In this document: positions 2,223 through 38,902 of the stretch, piece by piece
Numbering within the stretch: position 1 is the first letter of the stretch
Layout: each line of letters opens with the position of its first letter
From: Mycolicibacterium chlorophenolicum
Lineage (GTDB): Bacteria > Actinomycetota > Actinomycetes > Mycobacteriales > Mycobacteriaceae
Length of the DNA: 41,646 nucleotides
NCBI RefSeq assembly: GCF_001044235.1
Contig: NZ_JYNL01000005.1
Coordinates: 1 to 41,646, forward strand
Direction: 5' to 3'
The notes under the pieces: generated by a model
Database searches by the model: none
What the model was told of the DNA's origin: nothing
The model's input: only the letters and a program-made list of their open reading frames with translations
Program-made: the position numbers and the translations under genes

Positions 2223-2239
2223 TACTAAGCCCGATAGTA
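2223..2239. promoter_or_regulatory. BlaI-type operator: rhodanese lipoprotein
   Basis: TACTAA-GCCCG-ATAGTA, a 6-5-6 inverted repeat of the TAC-N11-GTA class. It lies 14 bases upstream of the rhodanese ATG, so it would cover the promoter or transcription start. Confidence 0.75.
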
Positions 2240-2346
2240 GGTCGAAGCCTCGCCCCACCACGTCATCGTGACGACGCTGAACCGGGATCGCACTCTCCCA
2301 TCCGCTGCCAGGACCGTCGTGGCCTGTACGCGGCACTGCTCAACGG

Positions 2347-2363
2347 ATACCCTCAGGGGGTAT
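2347..2363. promoter_or_regulatory. CsoR/RicR-type copper operator: 51-aa Cys protein
   Basis: ATACCC-TCAGG-GGGTAT is a perfect 6-bp inverted repeat with a 5-bp spacer, 25 bases upstream of ATG 2389. It resembles the TACCC/GGGTA palindromes bound by the RicR copper repressor in mycobacteria and matches the site at 29957-29973. Confidence 0.75.
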
Positions 2364-2388
2364 TTCGTGGTGTGGAGAGGAGATAGGG

Positions 2389-2544
2389 ATGAGCACAGAT
2401 GTGAAGCCCAAGGCGGCGGGGCTGGTACGAGTTGCGCGGCATCCTATGGTTCGCGCGGTCGTCAAGTGCGCGGTGATGTGTGCACTTGGCGCCAACACCA
2501 GGCAACGGCGCGCCGTGAAGCACGACAACAAGTGCTGCCCATGA
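2389..2544 (+). CDS. 51-aa Cys-containing small protein under a copper operator
   Basis: The frame opens with ATG at 2389 after GGAGAGGAGATAGGG and encodes 51 residues: a basic helix-like N-half (VRVARHPMVRAVVKCAVMCA), then a basic linker (NTRQRRAVKHDNK) and a C-terminal CCP. Possible metal ligands are Cys27, Cys31, Cys49, Cys50, His18 and His45. It is not MymT by sequence and I do not recognise a family. A copper-type palindrome (2347-2363) sits directly upstream, the arrangement seen for small copper-induced proteins of the RicR regulon such as MymT and SocAB. I infer a small Cu(I)-binding or copper-chaperone role. The frame is short and has not been checked for conservation. Confidence 0.6.
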   Translation: MSTDVKPKAAGLVRVARHPMVRAVVKCAVMCALGANTRQRRAVKHDNKCCP

Positions 2545-2740
2545 GGACCGGGCTCTGGGTGCCGTATCGCCGTCCGTCGATGGCGAGCGATCCTCCGCAT
2601 CTGAATTGAACACTTCAGCGGCAAGTTCAGTGCGACGTGGATGCACAGTGGCGGCGGAGTCCGTCACCACCGTGCCGCCGGATCCCAGAAGCGGGGAGGG
2701 CGTGGCCCCCGATGATGAGACCACCCCCGCCCCGCCATGG

Positions 2741-3040
2741 TCAGCAGGACGCGTCGACGTAGACCGTCGTGTATAAAACGCGCTCAACAGTTTGGTCCCG
2801 CCGATTCTGGCGAAACTCGGTGACCTCGCGGCCCGGGCGCACCCCGCTGACCGTGCACTTCTCCAGCGGTGCTGTCCCCACCTTGTTGAGGATCACCTTG
2901 TAGCCGTTGGACTCCAGTCTGTTGACAGTGTCCTGTACGGAATCGGGCCCGGCCGGCGCTGCGGCGGCCGGTTGTGCGGCCGCGATCATGAATGTGGCGA
3001 TACCAGACAGAGCAATAGTCGCCAGTGCGGTCATCTTCAC
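2741..3040 (-). CDS. Small secreted protein of unknown function
   Basis: This 99-aa protein has a clear Sec signal peptide (residues 1 to about 28, ending AAAAP) and a short mature domain with two cysteines (EKCTVSGVRPG and a C-terminal DASC), likely disulfide bonded. It looks like the many small secreted proteins of mycobacteria whose mature part starts with SVQDTVNRLESNGYKV; no function is known to me. Start GTG 3040 has AAAGGAG seven bases upstream. Two overlapping BlaI-type operators at 3073-3104 lie 33 bases upstream, placing this gene in the shared regulon. A noncovalent wall- or enzyme-binding role is possible but unsupported. Confidence 0.82.
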   Translation of the reverse strand: MKMTALATIALSGIATFMIAAAQPAAAAPAGPDSVQDTVNRLESNGYKVILNKVGTAPLEKCTVSGVRPGREVTEFRQNRRDQTVERVLYTTVYVDASC

Positions 3041-3072
3041 GGTTGTTCTCCTTTCGCGTACTTCAACGCATA

Positions 3073-3104
3073 TACGGCTGCGCTCAGTACGTAGCTAATC
3101 AGTA
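3073..3104. promoter_or_regulatory. Tandem BlaI-type operators: small secreted protein
   Basis: Two overlapping TAC-N11-GTA boxes: TACGGC-TGCGC-TCAGTA (3073-3089) and TACGTA-GCTAA-TCAGTA (3088-3104). They share a GTAC core and are offset by 15 bp. They lie upstream of GTG 3040. An additional exact repeat, GTAGCTA/TAGCTAC, lies at 3091-3109. Confidence 0.7.
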
Positions 3105-5954: not shown

Positions 5955-6401
5955 TCAGCGCCGCGAAATGCAGAAGCGGGCCAGCAACTGGCGGCCCGAT
6001 ACGACAGGGCCAAGTCCACGCGGTGGACCGCGCACCGCTGCCCAGATCCCGTGCCCGCGGTACAGCCACGCCGCCGCGACGGCGACGGCCAACCCCAGAG
6101 CCACCAGCACGGTGGCGACCCGCGGCACCACGGCGGTGGCGAAGGTGTCGGGTGAGATCGCCGCTGAAGCGTGTTGAAAATGTGGGTGGTCCATCACCAC
6201 AGCAAACTCGTGAGACACTGCTGTCGTCACTGCGTGAGGACCGTGGTCATCTGGACCGTCCGACCACGGCAACGCTACGTCACTGCCGATAAGCAGCACC
6301 CAGAAAACAACCGCCAGCGCTAACGCCGACTGCAGTCGCTTCCTCGTGGGGGCGTCGTTGTACCTCACAATGTCGCCCACTGTAGCAGCTTGTACGGGCA
6401 T
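5955..6401 (-). CDS. lpqS: LpqS-like membrane protein of the copper response
   Basis: This 148-aa protein has one N-terminal hydrophobic segment (LALAVVFWVLLIGSDVALPW), a His-containing outer segment (HEFAVVMDHPHFQH), a second hydrophobic segment, and a C-terminal tail RQLLARFCISRR. The tail with its conserved RFC and the HEF...DH segment match my recollection of M. tuberculosis LpqS (Rv0847), a RicR-regulated copper-induced protein. As in M. tuberculosis it precedes cysK2 and the MFS gene on the same strand, with a 120-bp gap. There is no classical lipobox. ATG 6401 directly abuts CGGAGG, so the true start may be downstream. A BlaI-type box (6581-6597) lies 180 bp upstream; I see no clear copper box here. 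Confidence 0.78.
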   Translation of the reverse strand: MPVQAATVGDIVRYNDAPTRKRLQSALALAVVFWVLLIGSDVALPWSDGPDDHGPHAVTTAVSHEFAVVMDHPHFQHASAAISPDTFATAVVPRVATVLVALGLAVAVAAAWLYRGHGIWAAVRGPPRGLGPVVSGRQLLARFCISRR

Positions 6402-6991
6402 CCTCCGTAGGTCCCCAAGTCGAGTCCATGTCGTTACGCGCTTGCGATTCGCGGATGTGAACCGGCCGAGCAGGCGATATATGCCGACTATGTGATCTGC
6501 ATGACTATCTCAGTGCGGCAACTCTTTTCACTAATTGTCTATGTGCGACAAGCTTGTGAAACTCATATGCGCAGTCCACCTACTGTTCTGGTACGTAGCA
6601 ATCAGCTGGCGGCAAGCGTGACGACTCCCGAAGTCGGGCCTCGACTGCCACCGCGCCCTTGCGTGTCGTATCCGCCATGTCTCACTGGCACCCGCAATCC
6701 CATTATTAACAGGCCGGTGGCTGGGGCGGTGCGGCGATCACGCGCATCGGCAAGCCGCTAGCCCATCCTGTGGCACCGCTCAACGGGTACAGAAATGCCC
6801 CATAAAGGAGCTCAGCCCCACACAGATGGGCGATTGGGGGCCGCTCAACGCGAGTATCCAGCTAACTTTTGCGCACGGGTGTGAGTGTTAACTATGCGGC
6901 CGTATGGGCGTCACCACGCCCGGGCGCGACAATCACCGGTTGACTGGGCGGATGCGGTGAGCCGCCGTCAGGATCCGGGTGTCCTGCTGAG
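6402..6991. other. Long gap between lpqS and the deacetylase gene
   Basis: About 590 bp without a supported gene. It contains one BlaI-type box at 6581-6597. The stretch 6480-6570 is clearly richer in A and T than its surroundings. Open frames such as 6492-6761 lack ribosome sites and coding character. Confidence 0.4.
6581..6597. promoter_or_regulatory. BlaI-type operator in the lpqS upstream gap
   Basis: TACTGT-TCTGG-TACGTA (TAC-N11-GTA). The only clear downstream gene is lpqS on the minus strand, 180 bp away; a plus-strand target is not evident. Confidence 0.55.
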
Positions 6992-7867
6992 CTACGCCGG
7001 TGGACCGCCCGGATTCTGGTTGGGAATGTCGGTGATGGGCAGGTTGGGCGCCGGTTTGGGTGAGGGGGTGTCGGGCAGTGTCGGAATCCGGTCGGCGGGA
7101 ATGTCGGCGATCGCGTTGGCTGGCGGGCCGTTTTCCCGGCCTCCGTAGCTGCTGCCGGGTGCGCGGTCGCCGAGCAGGTGGCTCACGGTCACCATGTGAT
7201 AGCCGTTGGCGATCAGTACGGGAAGAAATTGATACACCAGGTCGACTGTGCTGGAGTAGGTGTCGTGCAGTAGCACCACCGAGCCGGGTTTGATTTGGGT
7301 TTTGAGCATGTAGGTGGTGGCTGCCAGGTTGGCGTCGTTGATCCAATCGAAGGGAATGACGTCCCAAAGGATTTCAGCCAGACCCTGTTTTCCTGCTTCG
7401 GCGCGTACGGCGTCGTTGGATAGTCCGCCGGCCGGGCGGTACAGGTTGGGGGCGTGACCCGTTGCGGCCGCAATCGCCTCGGTGGCTTTGCGTAATTGGC
7501 TGGGGATATCGGCGACCGGGATGGTGGTCATGTTGGGGTGCTCCCAGGTGTGGCTGCCAACCTCCATGCCGGCGTCGGCGATGCGCCGTGCCGCGTCGGG
7601 GTCGGCGGCGACCTTGTTGCCGATGAGGAAGAAGGTCGCCTTGGCGCCTTGGTCGGCCAGGACTTGGAGCAGCCGGTCGGTGAAAGGTGTCGGTCCATCA
7701 TCGAACGTCAGGGCCACGCACTTGTATTTGGCGCAATCCACCTCGTCGGCGCCCAGCCGCTGTTGGCCGCGCGCCCCCTCGACCATGAACGCGGCCACGA
7801 TCACGATCACCGCGACCAGCACGCCCAGCTGCCACCACAGGCCCTCACTAAAACGCCGCAACCGCAT
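6992..7867 (-). CDS. Polysaccharide deacetylase (CE4/NodB), Rv1096-like
   Basis: This 291-aa protein has an N-terminal membrane anchor (residues about 13-32), then a CE4 deacetylase domain with all five motifs: TFDDGP (first metal Asp and catalytic base), SHTWEHP (metal His pair), RPAGG, WDVIPFDW and LLHD. The tail is Pro-rich (LPDTPSPKPAPNLPI). Length is the same as I recall for M. tuberculosis Rv1096, which deacetylates peptidoglycan and confers lysozyme resistance. It should act outside the membrane on wall sugars. ATG 7867 is preceded by AAAGG. A BlaI-type box (7911-7927) lies 44 bases upstream, putting it in the island-wide envelope regulon. Confidence 0.92.
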   Translation of the reverse strand: MRLRRFSEGLWWQLGVLVAVIVIVAAFMVEGARGQQRLGADEVDCAKYKCVALTFDDGPTPFTDRLLQVLADQGAKATFFLIGNKVAADPDAARRIADAGMEVGSHTWEHPNMTTIPVADIPSQLRKATEAIAAATGHAPNLYRPAGGLSNDAVRAEAGKQGLAEILWDVIPFDWINDANLAATTYMLKTQIKPGSVVLLHDTYSSTVDLVYQFLPVLIANGYHMVTVSHLLGDRAPGSSYGGRENGPPANAIADIPADRIPTLPDTPSPKPAPNLPITDIPNQNPGGPPA

Positions 7868-7910: not shown

Positions 7911-7927
7911 TACTGAGCGCGACCGTA
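7911..7927. promoter_or_regulatory. BlaI-type operator: polysaccharide deacetylase
   Basis: TACTGA-GCGCG-ACCGTA (TAC-N11-GTA), 44 bases upstream of the deacetylase start. Outer half-sites match; inner bases are less symmetric than in the best boxes. Confidence 0.5.
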
Positions 7928-8700: not shown

Positions 8701-8704
8701 CGAT

Positions 8705-10038: not shown

Positions 10039-10773
10039 CTAGACAGCTAAACGGTAGCCGATTCCGCGTACGTTCAACACCAGCAGTGGTCTGGCGGGGT
10101 CGTCTCCCAATTTTCTGCGCAGATGACCGATGTGCACGTGGATGTTTGTGATGCTGCCCGCCCAGCGCGATCCCCACACCGCGTCCAACATCTCTTGACG
10201 GGTCGTCACGGCGCCCGGCCGTTGAGCCAGCATCGCCAGAATCTCGAACTCCGTTCGGGTCAAGCTGATCTGCTCGTCGGCAAGGAAGACCTCGCGCCGC
10301 GCAATATCGACGCAAAGCCGCCCGAATACCTGCCTTGCTGGCGGATTCTCGGAATACGACCCGACAGTGTGGTCCGCCGGCGACGCATGCAAGCGGCGCC
10401 GGATTGCCCGTATGCGGGCGGCAATCTCACGACTGGAGATTGGCTTGGCGAGCACGTCGTCGGCTCCGGCGGCGAGCCCAGCGATCGTAGTGCCCTCATC
10501 ACGTCGTGCGGTCAACATGGTGATATGGCCATCAGATAGCGTGCGCATCCGACGGCACAGCTGCATGCCGTCGCCGCCGCGCACATCGGCATCAAGAAGG
10601 ATTATCCGGGGCTGCAAATTCTTGGCCGCGGTCAGTGCTTCATCGCAGTTGTCGGTGACCACCACCGACACCTCCTCAGCGCGAAGGTATTCGGCGAGAA
10701 GGTCAGTCCAGCCGGCGTCGCCATCGACAACGAGCACTTGCTGCGATGGTGCGGTGGGTGCGCTGTTATGCAC
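10039..10773 (-). CDS. Orphan OmpR/PhoB-family response regulator
   Basis: This 244-aa protein has a receiver domain (about residues 12-125; phosphoacceptor Asp in IILLDADV, Thr in MLTAR, Lys in LAKPIS) and a winged-helix DNA-binding domain (SLTRTEFEILAMLAQRPG ... HIGHLRRKLGDDP). No kinase gene is adjacent, so it is an orphan. The acidic pocket reads VVDGDAGW, so one of the usual paired acids is Gly; phosphorylation may be altered. Start GTG 10773 gives a normal N-terminus. A BlaI-type box (10782-10798) ends 8 bases before the start, which would make this a second-tier regulator controlled by BlaI. Its targets are unknown. Confidence 0.9.
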   Translation of the reverse strand: MHNSAPTAPSQQVLVVDGDAGWTDLLAEYLRAEEVSVVVTDNCDEALTAAKNLQPRIILLDADVRGGDGMQLCRRMRTLSDGHITMLTARRDEGTTIAGLAAGADDVLAKPISSREIAARIRAIRRRLHASPADHTVGSYSENPPARQVFGRLCVDIARREVFLADEQISLTRTEFEILAMLAQRPGAVTTRQEMLDAVWGSRWAGSITNIHVHIGHLRRKLGDDPARPLLVLNVRGIGYRLAV

Positions 10774-10781: not shown

Positions 10782-10798
10782 TACTGCCCTACTACGTA
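10782..10798. promoter_or_regulatory. BlaI-type operator: orphan response regulator
   Basis: TACTGC-CCTAC-TACGTA (TAC-N11-GTA), only 8 bases upstream of GTG 10773, implying a very short leader or leaderless mRNA. Confidence 0.65.
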
Positions 10799-11166: not shown

Positions 11167-11198
11167 TACTGTCAAGACTAGTACTAGCTGAGGTCGTA
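11167..11198. promoter_or_regulatory. Tandem BlaI-type operators between ORF 11137 and lnt
   Basis: TACTGT-CAAGA-CTAGTA (11167-11183) and TACTAG-CTGAG-GTCGTA (11182-11198) overlap at a GTAC core with a 15-bp offset. They contain the 10-bp palindrome CTAGTACTAG (11178-11187). Confidence 0.7.
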
Positions 11199-11334
11199 GA
11201 TTGTTGAGTGACGCCACGATGTGATGGCGAATCCGATGAGGACGGTGGTAAATGGTGTACAGACCAGGGATCGCGCGTGGCGGAGTCAGTCATCGTCTGC
11301 GCAGTGGTTCTGCGTGGTTTGGGCCGTGCGGGAA

Positions 11335-12969
11335 GTGAGCGCCGACGGTGGTTGTGTGCTGGGTCGCCGGCTGGCCAAAGCAGCCGGCGCGGTGGCCGCA
11401 GGGCTGCTGGTGGCGGCGAGTTTTCCACCGCTGGGCTGGTGGCTCAGCGCGATCGTGGGCCTGGCGCTGTTGGCGTGGGTGCTGGCCGATCCGTTGACCG
11501 GCGTAGCCGGCGGCTTCGGGTACGGTCTGTTGTTCGGGTTGGCGTTCTATCTGCCGTTGTTGCCGTGGGTCGGCGCCCTGGTGGGCCCGCTTCCCTGGGT
11601 GGCGCTGGCCGTCGTGTGTGCGCTTTTTCCCGCCATATTCGCCGTGCCGGCCGTGCTGCTGCGCGGACGGATCGGGTGGCCGTTGTGGTGGGCGGCCTGG
11701 TGGGCGGCCATCGAATGGCTCAAGAGTGTGTTTCCATTCGGCGGTTTTCCCTGGGGCGTGGTCGGATTCAGCCAGGCCGACGGCCCGCTGGCCGTGTTGG
11801 CGCGCGTGGGCGGGGTGGCGCTGGTGTCGTTCACGACGGCGTTGGTGGGCTTTTGTGTGGCCGGCCTTGCCCTGCTGGTTCGGCGCTCGGCGAGCACCGA
11901 TCTCAGGGTCACCGTCGCGGTGTGCGTTGTGTGCCTGGCGCTGGTCACCGTCGGCAGTGCGGCGATGGCGCCCCTGGTGTGGGCCTCAACCGGGCACGGC
12001 GGGCCCTCGGTGACGGTCGCTGTGGTGCAGGGCAATGTCCCCCGGCTCGGTTTGGATTTCAATGCCCAGCGCCGCGCCGTGTTGGACAACCATGTCCGCC
12101 AGACGCTGCGACTGGCCGACGATATCCGCTCCGGGCGAGCCGCCCAACCGCAGTTCGTTATCTGGCCGGAGAATTCTTCGGATATCGATCCGCTGCTCAA
12201 CGAGGATGCGGGGCGGCAGATCACGCGGGCCGCCGGGGCGGTTGGCGCGCCCATTCTGGTTGGCGCCGTCCTGGCTCGGCCCGAGTGGAGTCCATCGACG
12301 CCGGTCAGTGCCAACTCGGTGATCGTGTGGGATCCGGTCAGCGGGCCGGGACAACGGCATGACAAGAAGATCGTTCAGCCGTTCGGTGAATACCTGCCCT
12401 GGCGTAGCTTCTTTCGCCACGTTTCCGATTTCGCCGACCGGGCCGGATACTTCACGGCGGGCGCCGGCAGCGGCGTCGTGCAGGCGGGCGGGGTGTCGGT
12501 CGGTGTCACCACGTGCTGGGAGGTCATCTTCGATCGGGCCGCGCGCGAGGCGGTGCTCAACGGCGCGCAGATGCTGGCGGTTCCGAGCAACAACGCGACG
12601 TTCAACGAGCAGATGAGCCGCCAGCAGTTGGCATTCGCCAAGATCCGGGCCATCGAGCACGGGCGCAGCGTTGTTGTGGCGGGTACGACGGGTATCAGCG
12701 CGGTGATTACCCCGCAAGGGGAGGTCGTGGCGGGCACCGGCTTTTTCGAGCCTGCCCACCTGGTCTATCGAATCCCGTTACAGGCCAACGTCACTGCGGC
12801 GACGCGGTGGGCGGCGCAGGTGCAGTGGGCGCTCATCGCGATCGCCGCCGCTACGCTAACCGCGACGCTGATCGGCCGGATCCTCACTCCCCCAGGCACC
12901 GCGGGTGACATTGCCGGTCCGGCACGCCGCGTCAACGGCTGGGTTTGGCCGCCCACCCGACGAGCATGA
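11335..12969 (+). CDS. lnt: Apolipoprotein N-acyltransferase (Lnt)
   Basis: This protein of about 544 aa has an N-terminal bundle of hydrophobic segments (to about residue 200) and a periplasm-facing nitrilase domain. The catalytic residues are visible: Glu in VIWPENSS, Lys in HDKKIVQPFGEYLPW and Cys in VTTCWEVIFDR. Lnt adds the third acyl chain to the N-terminal cysteine of lipoproteins. It is a stand-alone gene here, whereas the M. tuberculosis enzyme is fused to Ppm1. Start uncertain: GTG 11335 is chosen to precede the first membrane helix; the frame is open from 11221, close to the paired BlaI-type boxes. Several lipoproteins in the island are potential clients. Its 3' end overlaps the convergent DUF-type pseudogene by 38 bases. 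Confidence 0.92.
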   Translation: MSADGGCVLGRRLAKAAGAVAAGLLVAASFPPLGWWLSAIVGLALLAWVLADPLTGVAGGFGYGLLFGLAFYLPLLPWVGALVGPLPWVALAVVCALFPAIFAVPAVLLRGRIGWPLWWAAWWAAIEWLKSVFPFGGFPWGVVGFSQADGPLAVLARVGGVALVSFTTALVGFCVAGLALLVRRSASTDLRVTVAVCVVCLALVTVGSAAMAPLVWASTGHGGPSVTVAVVQGNVPRLGLDFNAQRRAVLDNHVRQTLRLADDIRSGRAAQPQFVIWPENSSDIDPLLNEDAGRQITRAAGAVGAPILVGAVLARPEWSPSTPVSANSVIVWDPVSGPGQRHDKKIVQPFGEYLPWRSFFRHVSDFADRAGYFTAGAGSGVVQAGGVSVGVTTCWEVIFDRAAREAVLNGAQMLAVPSNNATFNEQMSRQQLAFAKIRAIEHGRSVVVAGTTGISAVITPQGEVVAGTGFFEPAHLVYRIPLQANVTAATRWAAQVQWALIAIAAATLTATLIGRILTPPGTAGDIAGPARRVNGWVWPPTRRA

Positions 12970-13215: not shown

Positions 13216-13247
13216 TACGAAGCATCATAGTACTACCGTCATTAGTA
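13216..13247. promoter_or_regulatory. Tandem BlaI-type operators: broken membrane protein gene
   Basis: TACGAA-GCATC-ATAGTA (13216-13232) and TACTAC-CGTCA-TTAGTA (13231-13247), again with a 15-bp offset and a shared GTAC. They lie 24 bases upstream of ATG 13192. Confidence 0.75.
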
Positions 13248-14597: not shown

Positions 14598-14614
14598 TAC
14601 TATTCGCGATAGTA
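14598..14614. promoter_or_regulatory. BlaI-type operator: antigen 85
   Basis: TACTAT-TCGCG-ATAGTA, a perfect palindrome and one of the best boxes in the window. TACTAT is also a good mycobacterial -10 (TANNNT), so repressor and RNA polymerase would compete. It lies 43 bases before GTG 14658. Confidence 0.8.
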
Positions 14615-14615: not shown

Positions 14616-15650
<1,035 letters not shown>

Positions 15651-15777: not shown

Positions 15778-16722
15778 CTAGACGCCGCACATAAAGACCC
15801 CAGATACGCCGAGCACAAGTGTGCCCAGCGGCGCGATGGCAATCATCGCTGTCGCGCTGGTAAGAGCGGCCTGCGTACGTACGCGGACATGATTCGCCGG
15901 CGGAAGGGCCAGTCGCTCAGCGCGATTCAACACCGCGACATCGGCGGCGCCCAGCGCGGCAGCCGGCGCGCCTGCGGCCAGAGCCATCAACCCGGTGAGC
16001 AGGGCACGCTTGCCGTGCCGGCGCGCGGCAGCATCGTCGGCACACATTTCTAACAACCGTGATATCTCGGCGGCACCGCGCGTCATCAGCGCAAGGCGGG
16101 GAAAGACCAGCGCCAAGCCGCGCAACGCCGTGACGATTCTGGGGTGGTGCCCGTCAAGATGGGCGCGTTCATGTGCGAGCACCGCTGCGAGTTCGCGCTC
16201 GTCGAGAGCCGCTACTGCTGCGGTTGTCACCACGATCGCAGGTGGCTTTCCTGCCACGCAATACGCGGTGCGCTCGGCGGCGTCGACGACATACACGTCG
16301 CGTTCGCCGGTCGGGCGGCCCACCAGTCGAACAGCTTCTGCATGCTCGTAAGCGTGCGCACGCAGCCGCCCAACGACGCGTACGAGCCGGATGCCGATGA
16401 CGGCGACGGTGCCCACCACGGCAACCGCCGAAGCCAGCAGCATCACTTGGGGTGCGCTACCCGCCTTGCCCGCAGCCAGATCACACAGCAACCGGACGCA
16501 GGACACAACGAATGAGCCACCGTCGTGCCAGTGCGCAACCACGTCGACGATCACGAGCACAACAACGGTCAGCCAGGTGAGCAGGACACTGCCGATCGCG
16601 ATTAACCAGGCCGCCACTCCCGATCGGGGAGCATGCCCGGCACGGGTGAGAAAGCCCAACGCCGGTGGTCCGAACACAATCACCGCGACGCTGTAGAGCA
16701 GCAGGCACGCCGCGACGTTCAC
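15778..16722 (-). CDS. blaR: BlaR-type M56 membrane metallopeptidase (first copy)
   Basis: This 314-aa integral membrane protein of the BlaR/MecR M56 family has hydrophobic segments at the N-terminus (about 5-25, 38-62, 92-115), then a cytosolic zinc-protease loop with LAHERAHLDGHH (HExxH) and the downstream ligand region LEMCADDAAAR, and a final hydrophobic segment. It lacks the penicillin-binding sensor domain of staphylococcal BlaR1, like Rv1845c of M. tuberculosis. It should cleave or inactivate BlaI when it senses envelope stress; the signal is unknown. GTG 16722 overlaps the blaI stop (GTGA), the usual coupling. Confidence 0.9.
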   Translation of the reverse strand: MNVAACLLLYSVAVIVFGPPALGFLTRAGHAPRSGVAAWLIAIGSVLLTWLTVVVLVIVDVVAHWHDGGSFVVSCVRLLCDLAAGKAGSAPQVMLLASAVAVVGTVAVIGIRLVRVVGRLRAHAYEHAEAVRLVGRPTGERDVYVVDAAERTAYCVAGKPPAIVVTTAAVAALDERELAAVLAHERAHLDGHHPRIVTALRGLALVFPRLALMTRGAAEISRLLEMCADDAAARRHGKRALLTGLMALAAGAPAAALGAADVAVLNRAERLALPPANHVRVRTQAALTSATAMIAIAPLGTLVLGVSGVFMCGV

Positions 16723-17108
16723 CGCTTCTTGGCCCTGCTCGACCGCCTCGCCAGCCGCCGCAACGCTTCCCTGAGTCGCTCGGATTCCTTGGGGCCGATC
16801 TGCTCGATAAAGTAGCTGAGCACCAGTTCTGAGCGGCCTCCCCCGTCGAGCGCGTCACGCATCAACCGGGCGGTGTGTTCCTCACGGGTCAGGGTGGCCC
16901 AATATCGGTAGGCCCGGCCATCGCGTTCGCGCTCGAGCCACCCTTTGTTGTACAAGTTATCCATGGTCGACATCACGGTGGTGTAGGCAATACGACGCTC
17001 GCCCGAGAGCTCTTCGAAAATGTCGCGCACCGTTACCATCTCGGGATCGTGATTCCACACGCGATCCATCACCACGGCTTCCAGCTCGCCGAATCCTCGT
17101 ACACGCAC
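16719..17108 (-). CDS. blaI: BlaI/MecI-family repressor (first copy)
   Basis: This 129-aa winged-helix repressor has the family region RRIAYTTVMSTMDNLYNKGW for DNA recognition and ERERDGRAYRYWATLT for the wing, then a C-terminal dimerisation helix and a Lys/Arg-rich tail. It is predicted to dimerise on TAC/GTA inverted repeats. GTG 17108 has TGGAGGC upstream. It overlaps blaR by four bases. No own box is seen in the 158 bp before it, but the LdtMt1-like gene directly upstream on the same strand has one (18062-18078), so Ldt-blaI-blaR may be one operon. The recognition segment is nearly the same as in the second BlaI (20328-20753). Confidence 0.93.
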   Translation of the reverse strand: MRVRGFGELEAVVMDRVWNHDPEMVTVRDIFEELSGERRIAYTTVMSTMDNLYNKGWLERERDGRAYRYWATLTREEHTARLMRDALDGGGRSELVLSYFIEQIGPKESERLREALRRLARRSSRAKKR

Positions 17109-17266: not shown

Positions 17267-18022
17267 TTAGCTCTGGACGATCACTGGGTCGCCGACCTTG
17301 ACAGTGTTGAAATACCATTCGGCGTTCTCGGGACTGAGATTGATGCAGCCGTGGCTGACGTTGGCCGAGCCCTGCGACCCGACCGACCACGGTGCCGAAT
17401 GTACGTAGACCCCGCCCCACGTCACCCGCACGGCGTACTCTCCGTCGATCAGGTAGCCCTCGGGGTCGTCGAGGGGAATTCCGATGGTGCGCGAATCGAA
17501 GACCACGCTGCGTTGCTTCTCCAGCACTTTGAAGGTCCCGAGCGGGGTTTCGAAGCCCGGTTTACCCAGCGACGCGGGCATCTCGCGCACCACTTGGTCG
17601 TCGATTTTCACTGTGAACGTGTGGGCCGAGACGTCGGCTACGCCCACCACCGCCGCCCCGGTGGTGAATTCGGTTTTCATGCCGCCGACGCGCAACGTGA
17701 CCGTCGAATGCGCCGGCCAGAACCCGTCCGGATTCCACTCCACGAGACGATCGGTCAGCCAAGTGAATTCACCGTCCACCGGCCGCGGCGCGCCGACGGT
17801 GATGCTGCGCTCGGCTGCCGCGCGGTCGTCGACGGGCCCGCTGAACCCGACCAGCACCGGATGCCCAACTCCTACAACCTGGCCAGGACCTGGACGCACC
17901 ATCGCGACTTGGCCGTCCATGCCCGATGCTGCGGTCGCTCCCGACTTCGCCGGCGGTGGCGCCACTGCCACCGCGGCGGCCGTGACGGTCAGTATCAAAA
18001 GCCCGCGAAGCGTGCCGTGCAC
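17267..18022 (-). CDS. L,D-transpeptidase, LdtMt1-like
   Basis: This 251-aa secreted protein has a signal peptide, an Ig-like domain (about residues 40-125) and a YkuD catalytic domain with [13 protein letters not shown] and [16 protein letters not shown]. Catalytic Cys226 and total length are both the same as in M. tuberculosis LdtMt1. It makes 3-3 peptide cross-links that most penicillins do not block. Start: GTG 18022 has a strong AAGGGAGGG four bases upstream; a TTG nine codons earlier does not. It carries a BlaI-type box upstream and lies just before blaI-blaR on the same strand, giving a direct link between a beta-lactam-tolerant cross-linker and a beta-lactam-type signalling pair. Confidence 0.95.
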   Translation of the reverse strand: MHGTLRGLLILTVTAAAVAVAPPPAKSGATAASGMDGQVAMVRPGPGQVVGVGHPVLVGFSGPVDDRAAAERSITVGAPRPVDGEFTWLTDRLVEWNPDGFWPAHSTVTLRVGGMKTEFTTGAAVVGVADVSAHTFTVKIDDQVVREMPASLGKPGFETPLGTFKVLEKQRSVVFDSRTIGIPLDDPEGYLIDGEYAVRVTWGGVYVHSAPWSVGSQGSANVSHGCINLSPENAEWYFNTVKVGDPVIVQS

Positions 18023-18061
18023 GAGCCCTCCCTTCACCGCGGTGCGCAACTAGCACCATGT

Positions 18062-18078
18062 TACGTATGTACTACGTA
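18062..18078. promoter_or_regulatory. BlaI-type operator: LdtMt1-like gene and blaI-blaR
   Basis: TACGTA-TGTAC-TACGTA, a perfect palindrome in the TACGTA variant, 40 bases upstream of GTG 18022. Confidence 0.75.
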
Positions 18079-18642: not shown

Positions 18643-18659
18643 TACTATCGAGATTAGTA
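18643..18659. promoter_or_regulatory. BlaI-type operator: two-helix membrane protein
   Basis: TACTAT-CGAGA-TTAGTA (TAC-N11-GTA, five-base core half-sites identical), 31 bases upstream of ATG 18612. Confidence 0.75.
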
Positions 18660-18751: not shown

Positions 18752-19347
18752 TCATTCGGGCGCGCCGGCTGCGGTCACCGCAGTGGATAGCTGGCGCTCG
18801 GCCAGGCGAGTGAGCCGCTTGAGGTGATCACGGCTGTACTTGAAGCCAGCCGAGCGCACCTCAATGATGAGCGGCCCGTCACGGGCCGCGATGGTTACAC
18901 CCATTGGGCCGACCAACTGTCTCGTGACGATAGCCAGCGCATCTTCACCGACATAGGGCCGCCCAGCCCTACAGAGCCGCGCGAGGATCGAAGGCCCTCG
19001 ACGAGATTGATGAAGGCCGTGAAGGCGCCCTCATCGGTTGGGTAATCAGCGACCGCCACGGTGAGCTGGACCATTGCGGTCAAGTCGCTGAACTGTGATC
19101 GCCGCGTTGCTTGTGGCGTACCCGGCGCCTCGGGATCCACACCTGTGCGAGCCATCCGGGTCATCATCGGGAATTCTTGGCGCACAACGGATAATGAAAG
19201 GACTTCGTTAGCAGGCAGCGCAGGTGGTGCCGCGGCATTGCGGTCCAGCAGGGTGTCCAGAATAGGGTTGGCACAGCCGCTGAGGATCGCCGCCGACACA
19301 ACGGCTAGGGCCAGAGCGCGGCGGCCGCAGCGTCGGCCGCACAACAT
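18752..19347 (-). pseudogene. Frameshifted lipoprotein gene
   Basis: From ATG 19347 the product begins with a lipoprotein signal (ALAVVSAAILSGC, lipobox LSGC, Cys about residue 25) and runs through QFSDLTAMVQLTVAVADYPT to a stop at 18895. Another frame then continues without a break from about 19000 to TGA 18752 with clear protein character: RPYVGEDALAIVTRQLVGPM, VTIAARDGPLIIEVRSAGFK and RDHLKRLTRLAERQL. The two parts together give about 198 residues, so one indel between about 18960 and 19010 has split the gene, unless it is a sequencing error. The family is unknown to me. The start codon abuts a BlaI-type box, suggesting leaderless translation. Confidence 0.68.
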
Positions 19348-22365: not shown

Positions 22366-22467
22366 CTGGACAACTGCTTACTGGCTGGAGCCGTAGCTGC
22401 GCCAGGGGAGCTCTGACGGACGGCCGGCCGACGGTGATACGCCAGCGCCCCCGCTAAGGGAGATCAT

Positions 22468-23892
22468 GTGATGAGGCCCCTACGCCACTGGGTCAGCCGC
22501 CTCACCGCCGTGACGATCGGTGTTGCCGTGCTGGCCTGTGGTGGTGGCGTCACCGCGCAGGCCTCCCACAATGGCACCGGCCATTCGGGTTCGGAGATCT
22601 CCGTGCTGGTCGCCGACCTCGCGCAGGCCAATCAGCGCCTGGCTGACATCGGCGCGCAGATTCAGGGGCAGCAGGAAGGTGTTAACAAAGCCCTGGTGGA
22701 GGTTGCCAACGCGCGTGATGCTGCCGATGCCGCGCGCCGCGACGTGCAGGCCAGCGAGCAAGGGATGGCCGATGCGAACGCGGCGATCGCCGCCGCTCAA
22801 AGGCGCTTCGATGACTTCGCCGCCGCTACCTACGTCAACGGCCCACCGCAAGCGCTGGTTTCGGCGGCCAGCCCGGAGGACATCATCGCCACCGCCAGCG
22901 CCGATCAGACCCTGGCGCTCAGCCACCGCAACGTGCTGACCGATCTACAGCGCGCCCGTACCGAGCAGGCGAATCGGGCGTCCGCGGCGCGCGCGGCCCA
23001 GCAGCGCGCCGACCAGGCAGCCGCCGATGCCGAGCGAAGTCAACAGGCGGCGGTGGCCGCCCTGACCGAGGCGCAACGCCAATTCGGTGTCCAGCAGGCC
23101 GAAGTCGATCGGCTCGTCGCCGATCGTGACGCCGCGCGGGCCCGTCTCGACGCCGCCCGTCCGGCGCCCTCACCGTCAACCCAGGCGCCTGCGAACGCCG
23201 CGGGCGCCGAGTCTGCGGCTCCGGATCGGTGGGACCGGCAAGGTCCGGCCGGGGCACCGGCGCCCGCCGACACCGGTCAATGGGACACCACTTTGCCGAT
23301 GGTGCCCAGCGCCAACGTAGCCGGGGACCCCATCGCCATCGTCAATGCGGTCCTGCAGATCTCGGCGACCTCGGCACAGGTGACCGCCGACATGGGCCGA
23401 AAGTTCCTGACACAACTCGGGATCCTGCCGCAAGCCTCCGCACCCGCCGACCCCGGATTCACCAACGGGCGCATCCCGCGGGTGTATGGCCGCCAGGCAA
23501 TGGAATACGTGATCCGCCGGGCCACGTCGCAGCTGGGTGTGCCCTATTCCTGGGGCGGCGGCAACGCGAACGGACCATCCCGCGGCATCGACCAGGGCGC
23601 CAACACCGTCGGATTCGACTGCTCCGGACTGATCCTGTACGCCTTCGCTGGTGTGGGCATCAAACTGGAGCACTACTCCGGCACGCAGTACAACTCCGGA
23701 CGCAAGGTCCCCTCATCACAAATGCAACGCGGCGATCTGATCTTCTACGGCCCCAACGCAAGCCAGCATGAATCGATGTACCTCGGCAACGGGCAGATGA
23801 TCGAAGCGCCCTACACCGGCTCGGTGGTTAAGATCTCGCCGGTACGCACCAGCGGCATGATGCCGTATGTCACCCGACTCATCGAATACTGA
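22468..23892 (+). CDS. ripA: RipA-like NlpC/P60 peptidoglycan endopeptidase
   Basis: This 474-aa secreted enzyme has a signal peptide (to about 33), a long coiled-coil region (about 45-250, rich in Ala/Gln/Glu heptads), a Pro-rich linker, and a C-terminal NlpC/P60 domain. The triad Cys385, His434, Glu446 (FDCSGL, SQHESMYLG, MIEAPY) is offset by two from RipA of M. tuberculosis (383/432/444, 472 aa), matching the extra N-terminal residue pair. RipA cuts D-Glu-mDAP bonds and separates daughter cells with Rpf partners. GTG 22468 and ATG 22471 both suit AGGGAG. SQHES replaces SQHVT next to the catalytic His. A BlaI-type box lies upstream. It converges with mmcO. Its coiled-coil normally keeps the enzyme inactive until processed. 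Confidence 0.95.
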   Translation: MMRPLRHWVSRLTAVTIGVAVLACGGGVTAQASHNGTGHSGSEISVLVADLAQANQRLADIGAQIQGQQEGVNKALVEVANARDAADAARRDVQASEQGMADANAAIAAAQRRFDDFAAATYVNGPPQALVSAASPEDIIATASADQTLALSHRNVLTDLQRARTEQANRASAARAAQQRADQAAADAERSQQAAVAALTEAQRQFGVQQAEVDRLVADRDAARARLDAARPAPSPSTQAPANAAGAESAAPDRWDRQGPAGAPAPADTGQWDTTLPMVPSANVAGDPIAIVNAVLQISATSAQVTADMGRKFLTQLGILPQASAPADPGFTNGRIPRVYGRQAMEYVIRRATSQLGVPYSWGGGNANGPSRGIDQGANTVGFDCSGLILYAFAGVGIKLEHYSGTQYNSGRKVPSSQMQRGDLIFYGPNASQHESMYLGNGQMIEAPYTGSVVKISPVRTSGMMPYVTRLIEY

Positions 23893-32935: not shown

Positions 32936-32941
32936 GGACTT

Positions 32942-33397: not shown

Positions 33398-33429
33398 TAC
33401 GTGAATCGCTAGTACTGAGAACCGCAGTA
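33398..33429. promoter_or_regulatory. Tandem BlaI-type operators: ripB leader promoter
   Basis: TACGTG-AATCG-CTAGTA (33398-33414) and TACTGA-GAACC-GCAGTA (33413-33429) overlap at GTAC with the same 15-bp offset as three other pairs. The nearest possible target is ripB on the minus strand, about 460 bp away. Confidence 0.6.
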
Positions 33430-34995: not shown

Positions 34996-35011
34996 TACTA
35001 TGGCACATAGT
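34995..35011. promoter_or_regulatory. BlaI-type operator abutting the 48-aa gene
   Basis: TACTAT-GGCAC-ATAGTA, a perfect palindrome overlapping ATG 34995. It also heads the downstream DUF7373-type lipoprotein. Confidence 0.8.
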
Positions 35012-35191
35012 AGTGACGGTTCCATTGCGGCTGACGAGTCGGCAATTCCTGATACAACCCCACACAGCCGCCTTGGCGGCCCGCACCCGTTCGACCAACG
35101 AGGGGCAGGCCGGACCTCCCCTGCAGCGCAGCACGGGTGCGTTGAGCGGGCAGTGTCAACTGAGTATTTGTACCGCAGGCCCGCTAGTATG

Positions 35192-35208
35192 TACGTACGG
35201 AAATAGTA
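35192..35208. promoter_or_regulatory. BlaI-type operator: LdtMt2-like gene
   Basis: TACGTA-CGGAA-ATAGTA (TAC-N11-GTA), 198 bases upstream of the Ldt start. The leader 35209-35406 contains only very short frames (for example 35210-35272) that I do not count as genes. Confidence 0.65.
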
Positions 35209-35406: not shown

Positions 35407-36627
35407 ATGCGGCGGATCGGTTCGGTGACCGGTCGGCGTGGGTCGCGGTTCTGGTTGATCGCCCTGGTGACGCTATCGGCGGTGGCGATGGTGCTCACCG
35501 GCTGCACCAGCAAGCCGGCTGCGCCAGCACCTCAGGTGATCGCAGAAAAGGGCGATCCATATAGCGACCTGTTGGTGCCCAGGCTGCAAGCGTCGGTCAC
35601 CGACCAAGCCGTCGGCGTACCGGTGGACGCCCCGGTCACAGTCACCGCCGGCGACGGCGTCCTGGGCACCGTCACCATGGTCAACGAAGCGGGCAATCCG
35701 GTCGACGGACAGCTCAGCCCCGACGGACTGACCTGGGCGACGACCGAGCCGCTCGGTTACAACAAGCAATACACCCTCAACGCCGAGGCGCGTGGACTCG
35801 GCGGCATCGCCCGCAACAGCATGACATTCCAGACGGCATCGCCGGAAAACCTGACAATGCCCTACGTCCTGCCCAACGACGGTGAAGTAGTGGGTATCGG
35901 CCAGCCCGTAGCGATCCGCTTCGACGAAGACATCCCCAACCGGTTGGCGGCGCAAAAGGCCATCAAAGTGACCACCAACCCACCGGTAGAGGGCGCGTTC
36001 TACTGGCTCAACAACCGCGAAGTGCGTTGGCGCCCAGCCAAATACTGGAAACCCGGCACCACGGTCGAGGTGACAGTCAACACCTACGGCGTCGACCTCG
36101 GCGATGGCCTCTTTGGCCAGGAGGACATCACCACCCGGTTCAGCATCGGCGACGAGGTCATCGCCACCGCTGACGACAACACCAAGACACTGACCGTGCG
36201 GCGCAACGGTGAAGTGGTCAGATCCATGCCGCTTTCCATGGGCAAGGACAGCACCCCCACCGACAACGGCCCCTACATCATCGGCGACCGGTATTCGCAC
36301 CTGATCATGGACTCCTCGACCTACGGTGTGCCCGTCAACTCACCCGAGGGGTACCGCCTCGAGGTGGATTGGGCCACACAGATGTCCTACAGCGGCATCT
36401 ATGTGCATTCCGCGCCGTGGTCGGTGGGCAGCCAGGGCCGCGCCAACGTGAGCCACGGGTGCCTCAACGTGAGCCCGGCGAATGCAATTTGGTTCTACGA
36501 CAACACCAAACGCGGCGACATCGTCGAGGTGGTCAACACTGTCGGACCGACGCTCTCGGGTACCGACGGTCTCGGGGACTGGAACATCCCATGGGAGCAG
36601 TGGCGCGCAGGCAACGCAAACCTGTAA
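35407..36627 (+). CDS. L,D-transpeptidase lipoprotein, LdtMt2-like
   Basis: This 406-aa protein has a lipoprotein signal ([13 protein letters not shown], lipobox LTGC), two Ig-like domains (about 45-150 and 150-250) and a YkuD domain with [13 protein letters not shown] and [16 protein letters not shown]. The catalytic Cys352 and length match LdtMt2 of M. tuberculosis (Cys354, 408 aa), the main 3-3 cross-linking enzyme and carbapenem target. ATG 35407 has GAGAGGGGAAGAGCG upstream. A BlaI-type box lies 198 bases upstream. It is the membrane-anchored member of three LDTs in the window. The following F510_1955-type gene has its own box. Confidence 0.96.
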
Positions 36628-36664
36628 ACCCCCGGCCGAGCACGGGATTCATGGCTGCAGGCAC

Positions 36665-36681
36665 TACGATCCGGGTTCGTA
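36665..36681. promoter_or_regulatory. BlaI-type operator: F510_1955-type lipoprotein
   Basis: TACGAT-CCGGG-TTCGTA (TAC-N11-GTA), 31 bases upstream of ATG 36713. Inner bases are less symmetric than in the best boxes. Confidence 0.5.
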
Positions 36682-36712
36682 GCGGAACTTTGTGAGCGAG
36701 AACGGAGTAAGC

Positions 36713-37561
36713 ATGCGCTCAACACTGGTTGCGCTGCTGGGCATTACGGTGTTGGTGGCCGGCGCATGCTCAAACACCGAGACGAAGTCGAGCCAAGGCG
36801 ACTCCAGAGGTCTTGCACACATCCACGGCCTAGGCATCAATCCCGCCGACGACGCGCTGTACGCCGGCACGCATTACGGCGTGTACCGGCTCGCCAGCGA
36901 GCGCGATCCCGAACTCGTCGGCGGCGTCGTGCAGGATTTCATGGGCTTCACCGTTGCCGGACCCAATCACTTTCTGGGCAGCGGCCATCCCGGCGCGGAC
37001 GACCGCGATGCCCCACCGTCGCTGGGACTGATCGAGACCACCGACGGCGGACAATCGTGGGCATCGGTGGCGCTGAGCGGCGAGGTCGATTTTCATTCCC
37101 TCGACTACCGCCACGGCCTCGTCTACGGCCTTGACAGCGGCAGCCAGACCGTGATGGTGAGCACGGACAAACGCACGTGGGATCGACGCGCCGCCATCAG
37201 CGCCGTCGACATCGCCGTGTCACCGCGCAATCCCAACGAGATCCTGGCGACGACCGCCGACGGTCTGATGCGCAGCCTCGACCAAGGCAGGACGTTCACG
37301 CCAGTCGCCGCGCAACCCCAACTGGTCTTGCTCAGTTGGCCCGACGACGGCCCCTTGATCGGGGTCGATCCCACCGGAACCGTGTATGCCAGCGAGGATT
37401 CCGGCACGACGTGGCAAGCGCGACGGGCCTTGGGCGAGCGCCCACAGGCGGTTCTTGCACGAGGTGGTGGGGTCGTGTTCGTAGCGACCGAAACGGGAAT
37501 CCAGCGCTCGACCGACGATGGATCCACCTTCGAGTCGTTTTATGCCTTCGCCGCACAATGA
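36713..37561 (+). CDS. F510_1955-type beta-propeller lipoprotein
   Basis: This 282-aa lipoprotein has the signal TVLVAGACSNT (lipobox AGAC) and a repeat domain with LAHIHGLGINPADDALYAGT near its start and several BNR/Asp-box-like repeats (ETTDGGQSWASV, MRSLDQGRTF, YASEDSGTTWQ, QRSTDDGSTF). This matches the F510_1955 glycosylhydrolase-like family, often near copper genes; enzymatic activity is unproven. ATG 36713 has CGGAGT upstream; an earlier GTG 36692 is possible. It lies 85 bases after the LdtMt2-like gene but has its own box. Its end overlaps the cyclase pseudogene by 20 bases. Confidence 0.82.
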   Translation: MRSTLVALLGITVLVAGACSNTETKSSQGDSRGLAHIHGLGINPADDALYAGTHYGVYRLASERDPELVGGVVQDFMGFTVAGPNHFLGSGHPGADDRDAPPSLGLIETTDGGQSWASVALSGEVDFHSLDYRHGLVYGLDSGSQTVMVSTDKRTWDRRAAISAVDIAVSPRNPNEILATTADGLMRSLDQGRTFTPVAAQPQLVLLSWPDDGPLIGVDPTGTVYASEDSGTTWQARRALGERPQAVLARGGGVVFVATETGIQRSTDDGSTFESFYAFAAQ

Positions 37562-38759
37562 GCACGAACCGGACTTGAGCAGGCGCACCACGCCTGCCGA
37601 ATCCGGCCCGTGGAGTGCGGACAAGCTGGCAGCTGCAGCCGATGAAACCGAGACACGACTGCACAGGTATGCCGTTGCCGGCTTGCTGCACCGGCAACCC
37701 GACGGAGATTTTGAACCTGACTCTTTGCACCGCCTGAGGCTGATCCAGTTCGCGCAGAGCAGGGGCATAACCGACGAACACCTGGCCGCAGCGATCACCA
37801 GCCAAGGCGACCTGCTCAGCATTTTCGACGAACTCGTCCCCGCCGCCGATGCCACGGTCAGCCTCGTCGACGTCGCCCACGACCTCGGTCTCGACGACAC
37901 CACAATCACGGACCTAGCCAGGATCATGGACTGGGACGACGTCGGTGCTGGAACACAATCCGACGTAGCCACCCTGCAAGTAGCGGCCAAAGCGCTGGCA
38001 CTCGGGATGCCCCGCGATGCCCTGATGCAAATAGTCCACGTCTTCGCCGACGCCACCGACCGCCTGGCCGACGCCATCGTGCGCACCTTCCACAACTACG
38101 TCCACGAACGCTTCCGCGCCCAAGGACTCACGGGCCCGGACCTGCTGGCGGCCAGCGAGGCAGTCGGCAAACCACTGCTCGACCTCGTCGAACCCACCCT
38201 TGTGTATTTCCACCGGCGGGCCTATCAGCGCGCCAACCGCGAAGACCTACTTCGCCATCTCGCCGAGCCGACCACACCGCCGTCGACCACACCTGGCCAG
38301 GAGCAGGCCACCGTCCTCTTCGTCGATCTGGCCAGCTTTACCCCACTGACCGCGACCATGGGCGATCATGCGGCAGCTGAAGTATTGCGCAGGTTCGGCA
38401 TCACAGTGCGCAGCAGCGCCGCACAACACCGAGGAAGGATCCTCAGGCGCGCCGCCGGCCAGTTCCTGATCACCGAGACCTCCGCGACGCGACCGGACAT
38501 CATCCCCCAAGCCGACTTCACTGCCCTGCCCCGCGGCGACTCAGGGGAATTCCCGATCCGATGTGTCTTGTCGAAGTCCGGCAGCGCATAGGCAGCCGCT
38601 CTACCCGCACGACGGACCCCGTGTGCGGCATGCTCCTGCATCCCGCCGACGTCGTAACCCAAACACCTTGGATGGAACGGAATGCATTTCTGTAGCGAGG
38701 CCTGTAAGCAAGCATTCGTCGACCACCCCGATCGCTTCGTCACCACTGAACGCCGTTAG
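37542..38759 (+). pseudogene. Decayed adenylate cyclase-YHS fusion
   Basis: The N-terminal about 240 residues are intact and resemble the regulatory domain of Rv1264-type cyclases (SLHRLRLIQFAQSRGITDEH ... RTFHNYVHERF). A class III cyclase domain then starts (ATVLFVDLASFTPLTATMGD, first metal Asp) but jumps from QHRGRI directly to AAGQFLITE, losing the substrate Lys, second metal Asp and the Asn/Arg pair. At about 38535 a frameshift ends the frame at 38591; a second frame continues RRLRGIPDPMCLVEVRQR and reaches DPVCGM, the first YHS metal motif, and after a further shift the rest, GMHFCSEACKQAFVDHPDRF, ends at TAG 38757-38759. So an internal deletion and at least two frameshifts disable a cyclase joined to a metal-binding YHS domain. 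Confidence 0.78.
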
Positions 38760-38885
38760 GCAAGCCGCCAACTACCGCGCCCGCCACCGCCTACCAGAGC
38801 ATGAGTGTTCATCGAACACCATTGCTGTGTTCGCACAACACCAGACGCGCCGGGGACTGCCGTGACTGGGTGCTGCCATCTGAAC

Positions 38886-38902
38886 TACTGGCCGCGTACG
38901 TA
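38886..38902. promoter_or_regulatory. BlaI-type operator: proline-rich Ldt gene
   Basis: TACTGG-CCGCG-TACGTA (TAC-N11-GTA), 81 bases upstream of the Ldt start. The gap 38760-38983 has no gene. Confidence 0.65.

Follow-up and report, generated by a model that had tools for sequence, protein, structure and literature searches.

A plasmid-borne palindrome as probable operator of BlaI-type repressors at a second set of mycobacterial envelope genes

The stretch analysed here (the window) comprises 41,646 nucleotides of Mycolicibacterium chlorophenolicum (contig NZ_JYNL01000005.1, positions 1 to 41,646). Its intergenic DNA is punctuated by one inverted repeat, TAC-N11-GTA, and it encodes two pairs of a BlaI/MecI-type repressor and a probable M56 membrane metalloprotease. 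Sequence comparison suggests that the 25 intergenic palindromes are likely BlaI operators, which would hold a second set of envelope genes off until an M56 protease destroys or releases BlaI upon envelope damage. Mycolicibacterium gilvum Spyr1 carries a 212-kb plasmid, pMSPYR101, one part of which is nearly identical to the window (one mismatch in 35 kb). In that part, annotation shows a metal-resistance island, which encodes a CsoR-type regulator, a four-helix copper protein, a multicopper oxidase, DUF305 proteins and a heavy-metal P-type ATPase. Amid these metal genes are ripA, ripB and ripC, three L,D-transpeptidases (Ldt; identified with Pfam), a transglycosylase (RpfC-like at 125 bits, under the model cut-off of 200), an M23 peptidase, a polysaccharide deacetylase, lnt and an esterase, and the two BlaI-M56 pairs lie in the middle of the island.

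Frequency and placement of the palindrome

TAC-N11-GTA (hereafter N11) occurs 26 times in the window. All 23 palindromes of the preliminary description are present, one given as 34995 beginning at 34996, and three more were found at 6393, 22379 and 23674. First-order Markov shuffles (500) gave a mean of 1.83 and a maximum of 7, and the 27 other spacings of TAC and GTA gave 82 matches in total, or 3.0 each. The longer form TACT-N9-AGTA was seen 11 times against 0.03 expected. According to the NCBI annotation of pMSPYR101, 25 of the 26 sites are intergenic, the site at 23674 lying inside ripA; under our own calls with long gene starts, coding sequence makes up a fraction of 0.73 and 23 of the sites fall in gaps. 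Within the 50-kb plasmid stretch that matches the window, the intergenic DNA alone contained 25 N11 sites against 0.97 expected (maximum 5 in 500 shuffles), the next commonest spacings being N0 (9), N7 (7) and N26 (6). The enrichment claimed earlier, over shuffled sequence and in gaps, is therefore real. The further claim that sites lie mostly within 10-110 bp of a start codon was too strong, as only 12 of the 26 do so with NCBI starts, although the placement in gaps itself stands.

Such an excess could in principle arise by chance, from base composition or from repeats spread by mobile elements; the island is indeed AT-richer than three chromosome-like stretches, and transposase genes surround it. 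However, the other spacings and the shuffles, including those of intergenic DNA, rule out chance and composition, and no sequence is common to the flanks of the sites, so that we give this explanation almost no credence. The genome (7.38 Mb) contains 55 matches to TACT-N9-AGTA, of which 11 sit in the window, a stretch that makes up 0.56% of its length. Among the 50 genome matches listed, 25 of the 39 outside the window fall on seven small contigs (C15, C26, C35, C39, C43, C57 and C63). Three 20-kb chromosome-like stretches contain one N11 match each.

Association of the palindrome with BlaI genes

Two BlaI genes had been reported in the window, and both encode PF03965 proteins well above the curated cut-off of 22.6 bits: BlaIa (129 amino acids; 16719..17108, minus strand; 88.1 bits, E-value 6.6e-25), named BlaI/MecI/CopY in pMSPYR101, and BlaIb (141 amino acids in pMSPYR101; 20328..20753, minus strand; 79.2 bits, 3.9e-22), also recognized by annotation. 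The best structure match of BlaIa is M. tuberculosis BlaI (PDB 2g9w, 1.7e-19). The probable partner proteases, M56a (314 amino acids; 15778..16722, minus strand; PF01435, 2.7e-10) and M56b (300 amino acids; 19429..20331, minus strand; PF01435, 4.1e-6), are annotated as M56 and contain HERAH, which fits the HExxH motif. M56a additionally matches PF05569 below its 31-bit cut-off (19.5 bits, 6e-4), and M56b matches PF01435 only. An N11 site heads each BlaI gene run: TACGTATGTACTACGTA at 18062..18078 precedes the run Ldt1-BlaIa-M56a, whose first gene encodes the L,D-transpeptidase Ldt1 (17267..18049, minus strand; PF03734/PF17964), and the palindrome at 21921..21937 precedes the run orf21376-TlpA-BlaIb-M56b.

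Relatives of BlaIa were retrieved from one-genome-per-species GTDB contigs with an alignment of twelve plasmid BlaIs, two of them BlaIb, as query. Of at least 564 confirmed relatives, the best 80 (actinobacterial, 59-99% identity) were scanned over 400 bp upstream. N11 palindromes gave 85 matches and were present in 58 of these 80 loci, which are not independent since many come from related Nocardia. Twenty of the 27 other spacings gave at most 10 matches, the exceptions being N3 (18), N4 (21), N7 (61), N8 (11), N14 (16), N15 (23) and N18 (35). N7 was found in 37 loci and N18 in 31, compared with 0-8 loci for each of N19-N30. Most of these matches have a half-site in common with an N11 palindrome (49 of 61 for N7 and 32 of 35 for N18), as in composite operators made of two N11 palindromes 7 bp apart, which they would fit. 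Such double palindromes, shifted by 7 bp against each other (TACTATNTACGTACGTAGA type), stand before blaI, for example, in loci L073, L097 (Nocardia), L098 (Rhodococcus) and L107 (Amycolatopsis). By comparison across genera, the link between the palindrome and BlaI appears well supported.

A third BlaI of pMSPYR101, BlaIc, is encoded outside the window and appears to have a variant operator of wider spacing, TACTAT-N12-ATAGTA (of the kind TACTATCTCGGTACCGAGATAGTA), in which the same half-sites stand 12 bp apart. This palindrome is found before MPT63, the gene preceding BlaIc, on pMSPYR101 (locus L046, upstream of 35626; about 195.6 kb on the plasmid) and before both MPT63 and BlaIc on pMYCCH.01 of M. 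chubuense (locus L049, upstream of 35818 and 38541). The residues following AYTTV are LSTMENL in BlaIc, MSTMDNL in BlaIa and MTVMDNL in BlaIb. Operators thus seem to track BlaI type, and BlaIc is unlikely to read the N11 sites because its own genes carry a different palindrome. The attribution of the sites to BlaI in the preliminary description is supported by the upstream regions of the 80 relatives; its wording of one repressor family holds only in a broad sense, given the BlaIc variant.

A survey of 198 genomes of the genus addressed the strict form TACTA-N7-TAGTA. Ten other genomes encode a BlaIa with 80% identity or more; strict sites in these number 5.1 on average, compared with 1.2 in 114 genomes that have no plasmid-type BlaI (p 1e-5). 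The control pattern differs little between the two groups (8.2 versus 6.9, p 0.3), and for the ratio of strict sites to control matches p is 7e-4. In one genome with two BlaI genes (G092), three strict palindromes stand in a row, 23 bp apart (contig C1, 4436842-4436904).

Alternatively, the main reader of the sites could be the chromosomal BlaI (Rv1846c type), the plasmid thereby exploiting the beta-lactam or cell-wall response of its host. The chromosomal BlaI of the host is preceded by a site of the same spacing, TACGACACGCGGTAGTA, which also speaks for the general link between palindrome and BlaI, and TACTAC...GTAGTA recurs among the matches listed for other genomes of the genus. However, strict sites are scarce in the 114 genomes mentioned above in comparison with the 10 carrying a close BlaIa, several plasmid BlaI genes carry the site themselves, and the segment that we take to be the recognition helix differs (TTVMSTMDNL versus TTIMTVLQRL). 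We therefore regard a mainly chromosomal reader as improbable.

Recurrence on other plasmids

The palindrome is not restricted to pMSPYR101-like sequence. On M. chubuense pMYCCH.01 the island has diverged (75.6% identity across the aligned 12% of the query) and its genes are reordered; all 13 of its sites are intergenic, standing before genes for a response regulator, ripB, a deacetylase, a transglycosylase, lnt and ldt, among others. The site upstream of response regulator RR1 is identical at 17 of 17 positions between the window and M. chubuense, compared with 29 of 120 in the ungapped flanks, and the deacetylase site at 15 of 17, compared with 37 of 120. The lnt and ldt3 sites agree at 9-12 of 17 positions, their half-site pattern being better preserved than the individual bases. 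In M. vanbaalenii, whose plasmid is 96% identical, 22 of 23 sites are intergenic. Seven further plasmids were scanned around their BlaI genes, where other spacings gave 1.4-3.0 matches per stretch; in five of them, intergenic sites made up 13 of 14 in M. aubagnense and likewise in M. rufum, 9 of 12 in M. poriferae, 11 of 13 in M. gallinarum and 11 of 12 in Rhodococcus sp. WAY2.

Beyond the island, the stretches of pMSPYR101 covered lie between 10 and 210 kb. Four of five sites are intergenic in the stretch adjoining the island, as are 10 of 12 at 10-60 kb, where another BlaI-M56 pair lies next to a second ripA; at 160-210 kb the single site is not, despite a further BlaI there. One strict site, at 210832, falls outside these stretches. 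Over whole plasmids, strict sites (control matches in parentheses) number 11 (0) on pMSPYR101, 15 (1) on the M. vanbaalenii plasmid and 17 (0) on pRWAY03, and 0-3 (0-1) on seven others, so that islands differ in half-site preference.

Genes preceded by the palindrome

Gene functions were tallied over 12 annotated stretches (the M. vanbaalenii stretch, L048, was left out). An N-terminal hydrophobic stretch is present in 69 of the 96 proteins whose genes have a site in their own gap, compared with 96 of 258 proteins whose genes have none (p 6e-9). By class, a site precedes most envelope genes (33 of 54) and cytochrome-oxidase/thiol genes (20 of 30) but few metal genes (5 of 47), mobile genes (1 of 23) or other genes (30 of 185), the classes having been made by hand and assigned after the tables had been seen. 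Among BlaI/M56 genes that follow their own gap, 5 of 16 have a site. Cytochrome c oxidase subunit I genes are preceded by the palindrome on four sister plasmids, and subunit III genes on three (L051 18221-18262 and 25974; L053 18212 and 25195; L054 18478-18519 and 27033; L055 26726 and 29259).

These counts bear on whether the sites are read by a different island regulator, such as RR1/RR2 or the CsoR-type copper sensor. RR1, RR2/HK and the metal-sensitive CsoR-type regulator are all encoded in the window, RR1 is preceded by a site, and on the M. gallinarum plasmid ArsR, CopC and CsoR-type genes each have one. Against this stand the small share of metal genes with a site, the lack of sites at csoR, the multicopper oxidase and DUF305 genes of the window, and the upstream sites of BlaI genes in several genera; such a reader is very unlikely in our estimation.

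In the window island, 9 of the 12 envelope genes with an upstream gap have a site within 300 bp, M23 being counted only through a site shared with the divergent esterase gene. No site lies within 300 bp upstream of ripB, ripC or the RpfC-like gene, so the earlier proposal that nearly all envelope genes are controlled is slightly overstated. The multicopper oxidase, DUF305, four-helix copper protein and csoR-type genes of the window have no site.

The host has further copies of several of these genes, namely lnt on contigs C30, C35 and C26, ripA-like genes on C20, C39 and C63, and ldt on several contigs. At the one place looked at per gene on large contigs, no intergenic site was found for the presumed chromosomal lnt (C30), ripA/ripB (C20) and ldt (C64), the two matches at C20 ripA/ripB both lying within genes. 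Sites are located at most 100 bp upstream of the extra lnt on C35 and the extra ripA on C39. Considering that the chromosome-type copies looked at lack an intergenic site and the extra copies on C35 and C39 have one, the island envelope genes look like spares, and the operator, as far as we looked, marks the spares.

Positions of the remaining sites

Four tandem pairs are present in the window, each with a shared GTAC and centres 15 bp apart. In the left part, the palindrome at 2223..2239 is upstream of a rhodanese-like exported protein gene, and the tandem pair at 3073 and 3088 (3073..3104) is upstream of a 99-amino-acid open reading frame with an N-terminal hydrophobic stretch. The newly found site at 6393..6409 is in a gap by NCBI annotation, and that at 6581..6597 lies in the gap before a small open reading frame (395 bp). 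The sites of the polysaccharide deacetylase (6992..7867, minus strand; PF01522) and of RR1 (10039..10773, minus strand; PF00072/PF00486) are at 7911..7927 and 10782..10798, respectively. A tandem pair at 11167 and 11182 (11167..11198) precedes the gene of the apolipoprotein N-acyltransferase Lnt (11221..12969, plus strand; PF20154/PF00795, TIGR00546), and lnt of M. chubuense is also preceded by a pair. Another pair, at 13216 and 13231 (13216..13247), lies about 150-165 bp upstream of a 47-amino-acid open reading frame. The palindrome TACTATTCGCGATAGTA at 14598..14614 is upstream of the esterase gene (14631..15650, plus strand; PF00756, 5e-60), which is divergent from M23 and whose product, with an N-terminal hydrophobic stretch, is presumably antigen-85-like.

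Around the BlaI genes, the site at 18643..18659 is in a gap and has no annotated gene start within 400 bp, and that at 19347..19363 is upstream of an unassigned small open reading frame (18895-19347). The palindrome TACTATCCTACATAGTA at 22181..22197 is located between RipA and the BlaIb gene run, and two more, at 22349 and 22379 (22349..22395), are upstream of the RipA-type NlpC/P60 endopeptidase (22468..23892, plus strand; PF00877; named ripA in pMSPYR101). A tandem pair at 33398 and 33413 (33398..33429), kept in M. vanbaalenii, is a candidate tandem operator; it stands upstream of RipB at a distance of about 465 bp, and no gene is annotated between the two (window 32935-33429). The palindromes TACTATGGCACATAGTA at 34996..35012, between DUF7373 and Ldt2, and 35192..35208, 207 bp upstream of Ldt2, precede the L,D-transpeptidase Ldt2 (35407..36627, plus strand; PF17964/PF03734). 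The last two sites are upstream of an F510_1955-family gene (36665..36681) and of the L,D-transpeptidase Ldt3 (site 38886..38902; gene 38978..40003, plus strand; PF03734/PF17964).

Riboswitch control of the rip genes was also considered and discarded, as no Rfam match reached the gathering score in the window and none was found up to an E-value of 0.1 in the ripB gap. On pMSPYR101, a match to the Ms_IGR-7 small RNA (126 bits) lies directly beside an IS1380 transposase gene (L047 24390-24507).

Proposed mechanism and possible signals

TANNNT is a mycobacterial -10 hexamer. Among the 64 sites assignable to one gene on ten plasmid stretches, the gene-side half-site reads TANNNT in 30, compared with 11 in the opposite reading (p 6e-4; background 0.4 per offset), in agreement with the overlap noted in the preliminary description; no -35-like element was enriched at any position upstream of these 64 sites. 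As the operator often contains the -10, a bound BlaI dimer would exclude RNA polymerase. We propose that BlaI dimers bind the N11 palindromes and block RNA polymerase at the -10, and that tandem palindromes with their common GTAC may take two dimers. Both BlaI gene runs would be autorepressed, since each is headed by a site. The repressed set would include L,D-transpeptidases, a Rip endopeptidase, Lnt, the esterase and the polysaccharide deacetylase. The M56 proteases are predicted to respond to envelope damage and to cleave or release BlaI. As a best guess, and speculatively, the trigger would be envelope damage, perhaps inflicted by copper.

The signal could instead be a beta-lactam, in the classical BlaR1/BlaI style, with L,D-transpeptidases bypassing penicillin-inhibited enzymes in what would be a tolerance island. 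The BlaI/M56 pairing and the presence of L,D-transpeptidases among the targets agree with this, as does a PF13354 serine hydrolase whose gene has a palindrome about 100 bp in front of it on two plasmids, those of M. poriferae (L053 2571-3332, where PF13354 is matched) and M. gallinarum (L054 4005-4766, where it is far under the NCBI class A cut-off). However, with Pfam no penicillin-binding or sensor domain was found in M56a or M56b, of only 314 and 300 residues, so that a classical beta-lactam trigger is not built in; moreover, the annotation of the site-bearing pMSPYR101 stretches, though incomplete, lists no beta-lactamase, and the neighbours are copper genes. A beta-lactam signal is thus a minority prospect, which we take seriously without favouring it.

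Copper damage is suggested as a signal because the islands are metal islands and copper inhibits some L,D-transpeptidases. This inhibition is described for the enzymes of E. coli and V. cholerae in PMC11390936, which cites Peters 2018; copper also lowers LD-crosslinks in other Gram-negatives, and the enzymes tested there include none from mycobacteria (PMC11390936). A wider proposal, which we put forward tentatively and which could well prove wrong, is that the BlaI/M56 pairs of Mycobacteriales metal-resistance plasmids sense copper damage outside the membrane and induce spares of the extracytoplasmic machines that copper poisons. These would be L,D-transpeptidases, Rip endopeptidases and the acylation of lipoproteins, joined on sister plasmids by thiol enzymes and cytochrome oxidase. 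Efflux genes would remain mostly under separate metal sensors, and paralogous BlaIs would be kept apart by the spacing, N5 or N12, between TACTAT half-sites.

The plasmid proteases M56a, M56c and M56d have a cysteine in the segment LLEMCADD (M56a at window 15778-16722; others at L046 36767-37723 and L047 29787-30707), where the chromosomal M56 has LLIEALADD and M56b LVELDADA. This cysteine may possibly take part in metal or redox sensing.

Several observations weigh against BlaI control of the sites as outlined here. The reversed control of TACT-N9-AGTA occurs 98 times in the whole genome, so that the forward pattern is the rarer one; there is no genome-wide excess, and the signal consists of the concentration in the window and a few small contigs. 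The BlaI-bearing contigs C32 and C41 of the same genome have 0 and 3 N11 matches (controls 0.7 and 1.3), and 22 of the 80 BlaI relatives lack a close upstream site. Among the plasmids, whose orthologous sites are not independent, only 1 of 4 sites is intergenic in M. lentiflavum (59 bp before its BlaI) and 3 of 7 in R. rhodochrous. As for target genes, divergent genes share sites, 21 of the 54 envelope genes have none, and the nearest site upstream of the extra lnt on C26 is about 750 bp away. When all 83 genomes with any plasmid-type BlaI are considered, strict sites average 2.05 versus 1.21 (p 0.005), but the control is also raised (8.2 versus 6.9, p 0.001), and division by the control leaves p 0.06; the genus statistic thus supports the BlaI link only for close relatives of BlaIa. 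BlaI copy number correlates weakly with sites (rho 0.25; 0.16 with the control pattern), and the genome richest in BlaI genes (G096, 13) has only 4 strict sites. A rule by which more BlaI genes entail more sites across the genus was therefore discarded, the trend being weak and partly a genome-size effect.

Relation to known BlaI systems and significance

M. tuberculosis BlaI (Rv1846c) and its partner Rv1845c resemble the window pairs in the BlaI fold, the partner protease gene and the envelope-related targets. The M. tuberculosis regulon, reportedly as described by Sala in 2009, consists of five chromosomal loci including blaC and ATP synthase, whereas the regulon proposed here would comprise about 20 promoters of a plasmid-borne island that holds spare envelope genes and whose annotation, which is incomplete, shows no beta-lactamase. 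CopY repressors belong to the same Pfam family, PF03965, and copper genes are likewise nearby. However, a CopY-type metal site is a C-terminal cysteine motif, and the BlaIa and BlaIb sequences contain no cysteine; they therefore have no such site, which rules out a CopY identity, and copper genes are mostly not targets. In S. aureus, BlaI/MecI (E-value 1e-5 to 1e-6) have a zinc metalloprotease partner, a part for which M56a and M56b are the candidates here, but with Pfam these two show no C-terminal penicillin-binding sensor domain of the BlaR1/MecR1 kind, which in BlaR1 is extracellular and detects beta-lactams (PMC9834060). In C. thermocellum, BlaI_0696 has the inverted repeat GTCTAT-N5-ATAGAC as its motif, at two sites per target in three operons (PMC8457756); the 6-N5-6 geometry is that of the window sites, the half-site differs, and the window has both single and paired sites. 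No title or abstract opening in the accessible literature on BlaI in mycobacteria or actinobacteria (copper, plasmids, operators and M56), which includes few subscription papers, describes such a plasmid regulon. What we propose is a large plasmid-borne form of BlaI/M56 regulation, new as a regulon, of a regulatory kind that is itself known.

BlaI/BlaR systems are textbook beta-lactamase switches. On these plasmids the same repressor family appears to run an island regulon of about 20 promoters for spare envelope parts and, on sister plasmids, respiratory parts, which adjoins the metal genes yet stays mostly apart from them. If this is true, metal-resistance plasmids carry a repair programme besides efflux, and the sensor-less M56 proteases of Actinobacteria would acquire a function, the sensing of damage to the envelope. 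The abundance of BlaI genes in certain members of the genus (as many as 13 per genome) would then make sense, as would the additional Lnt and Rip copies in the host.

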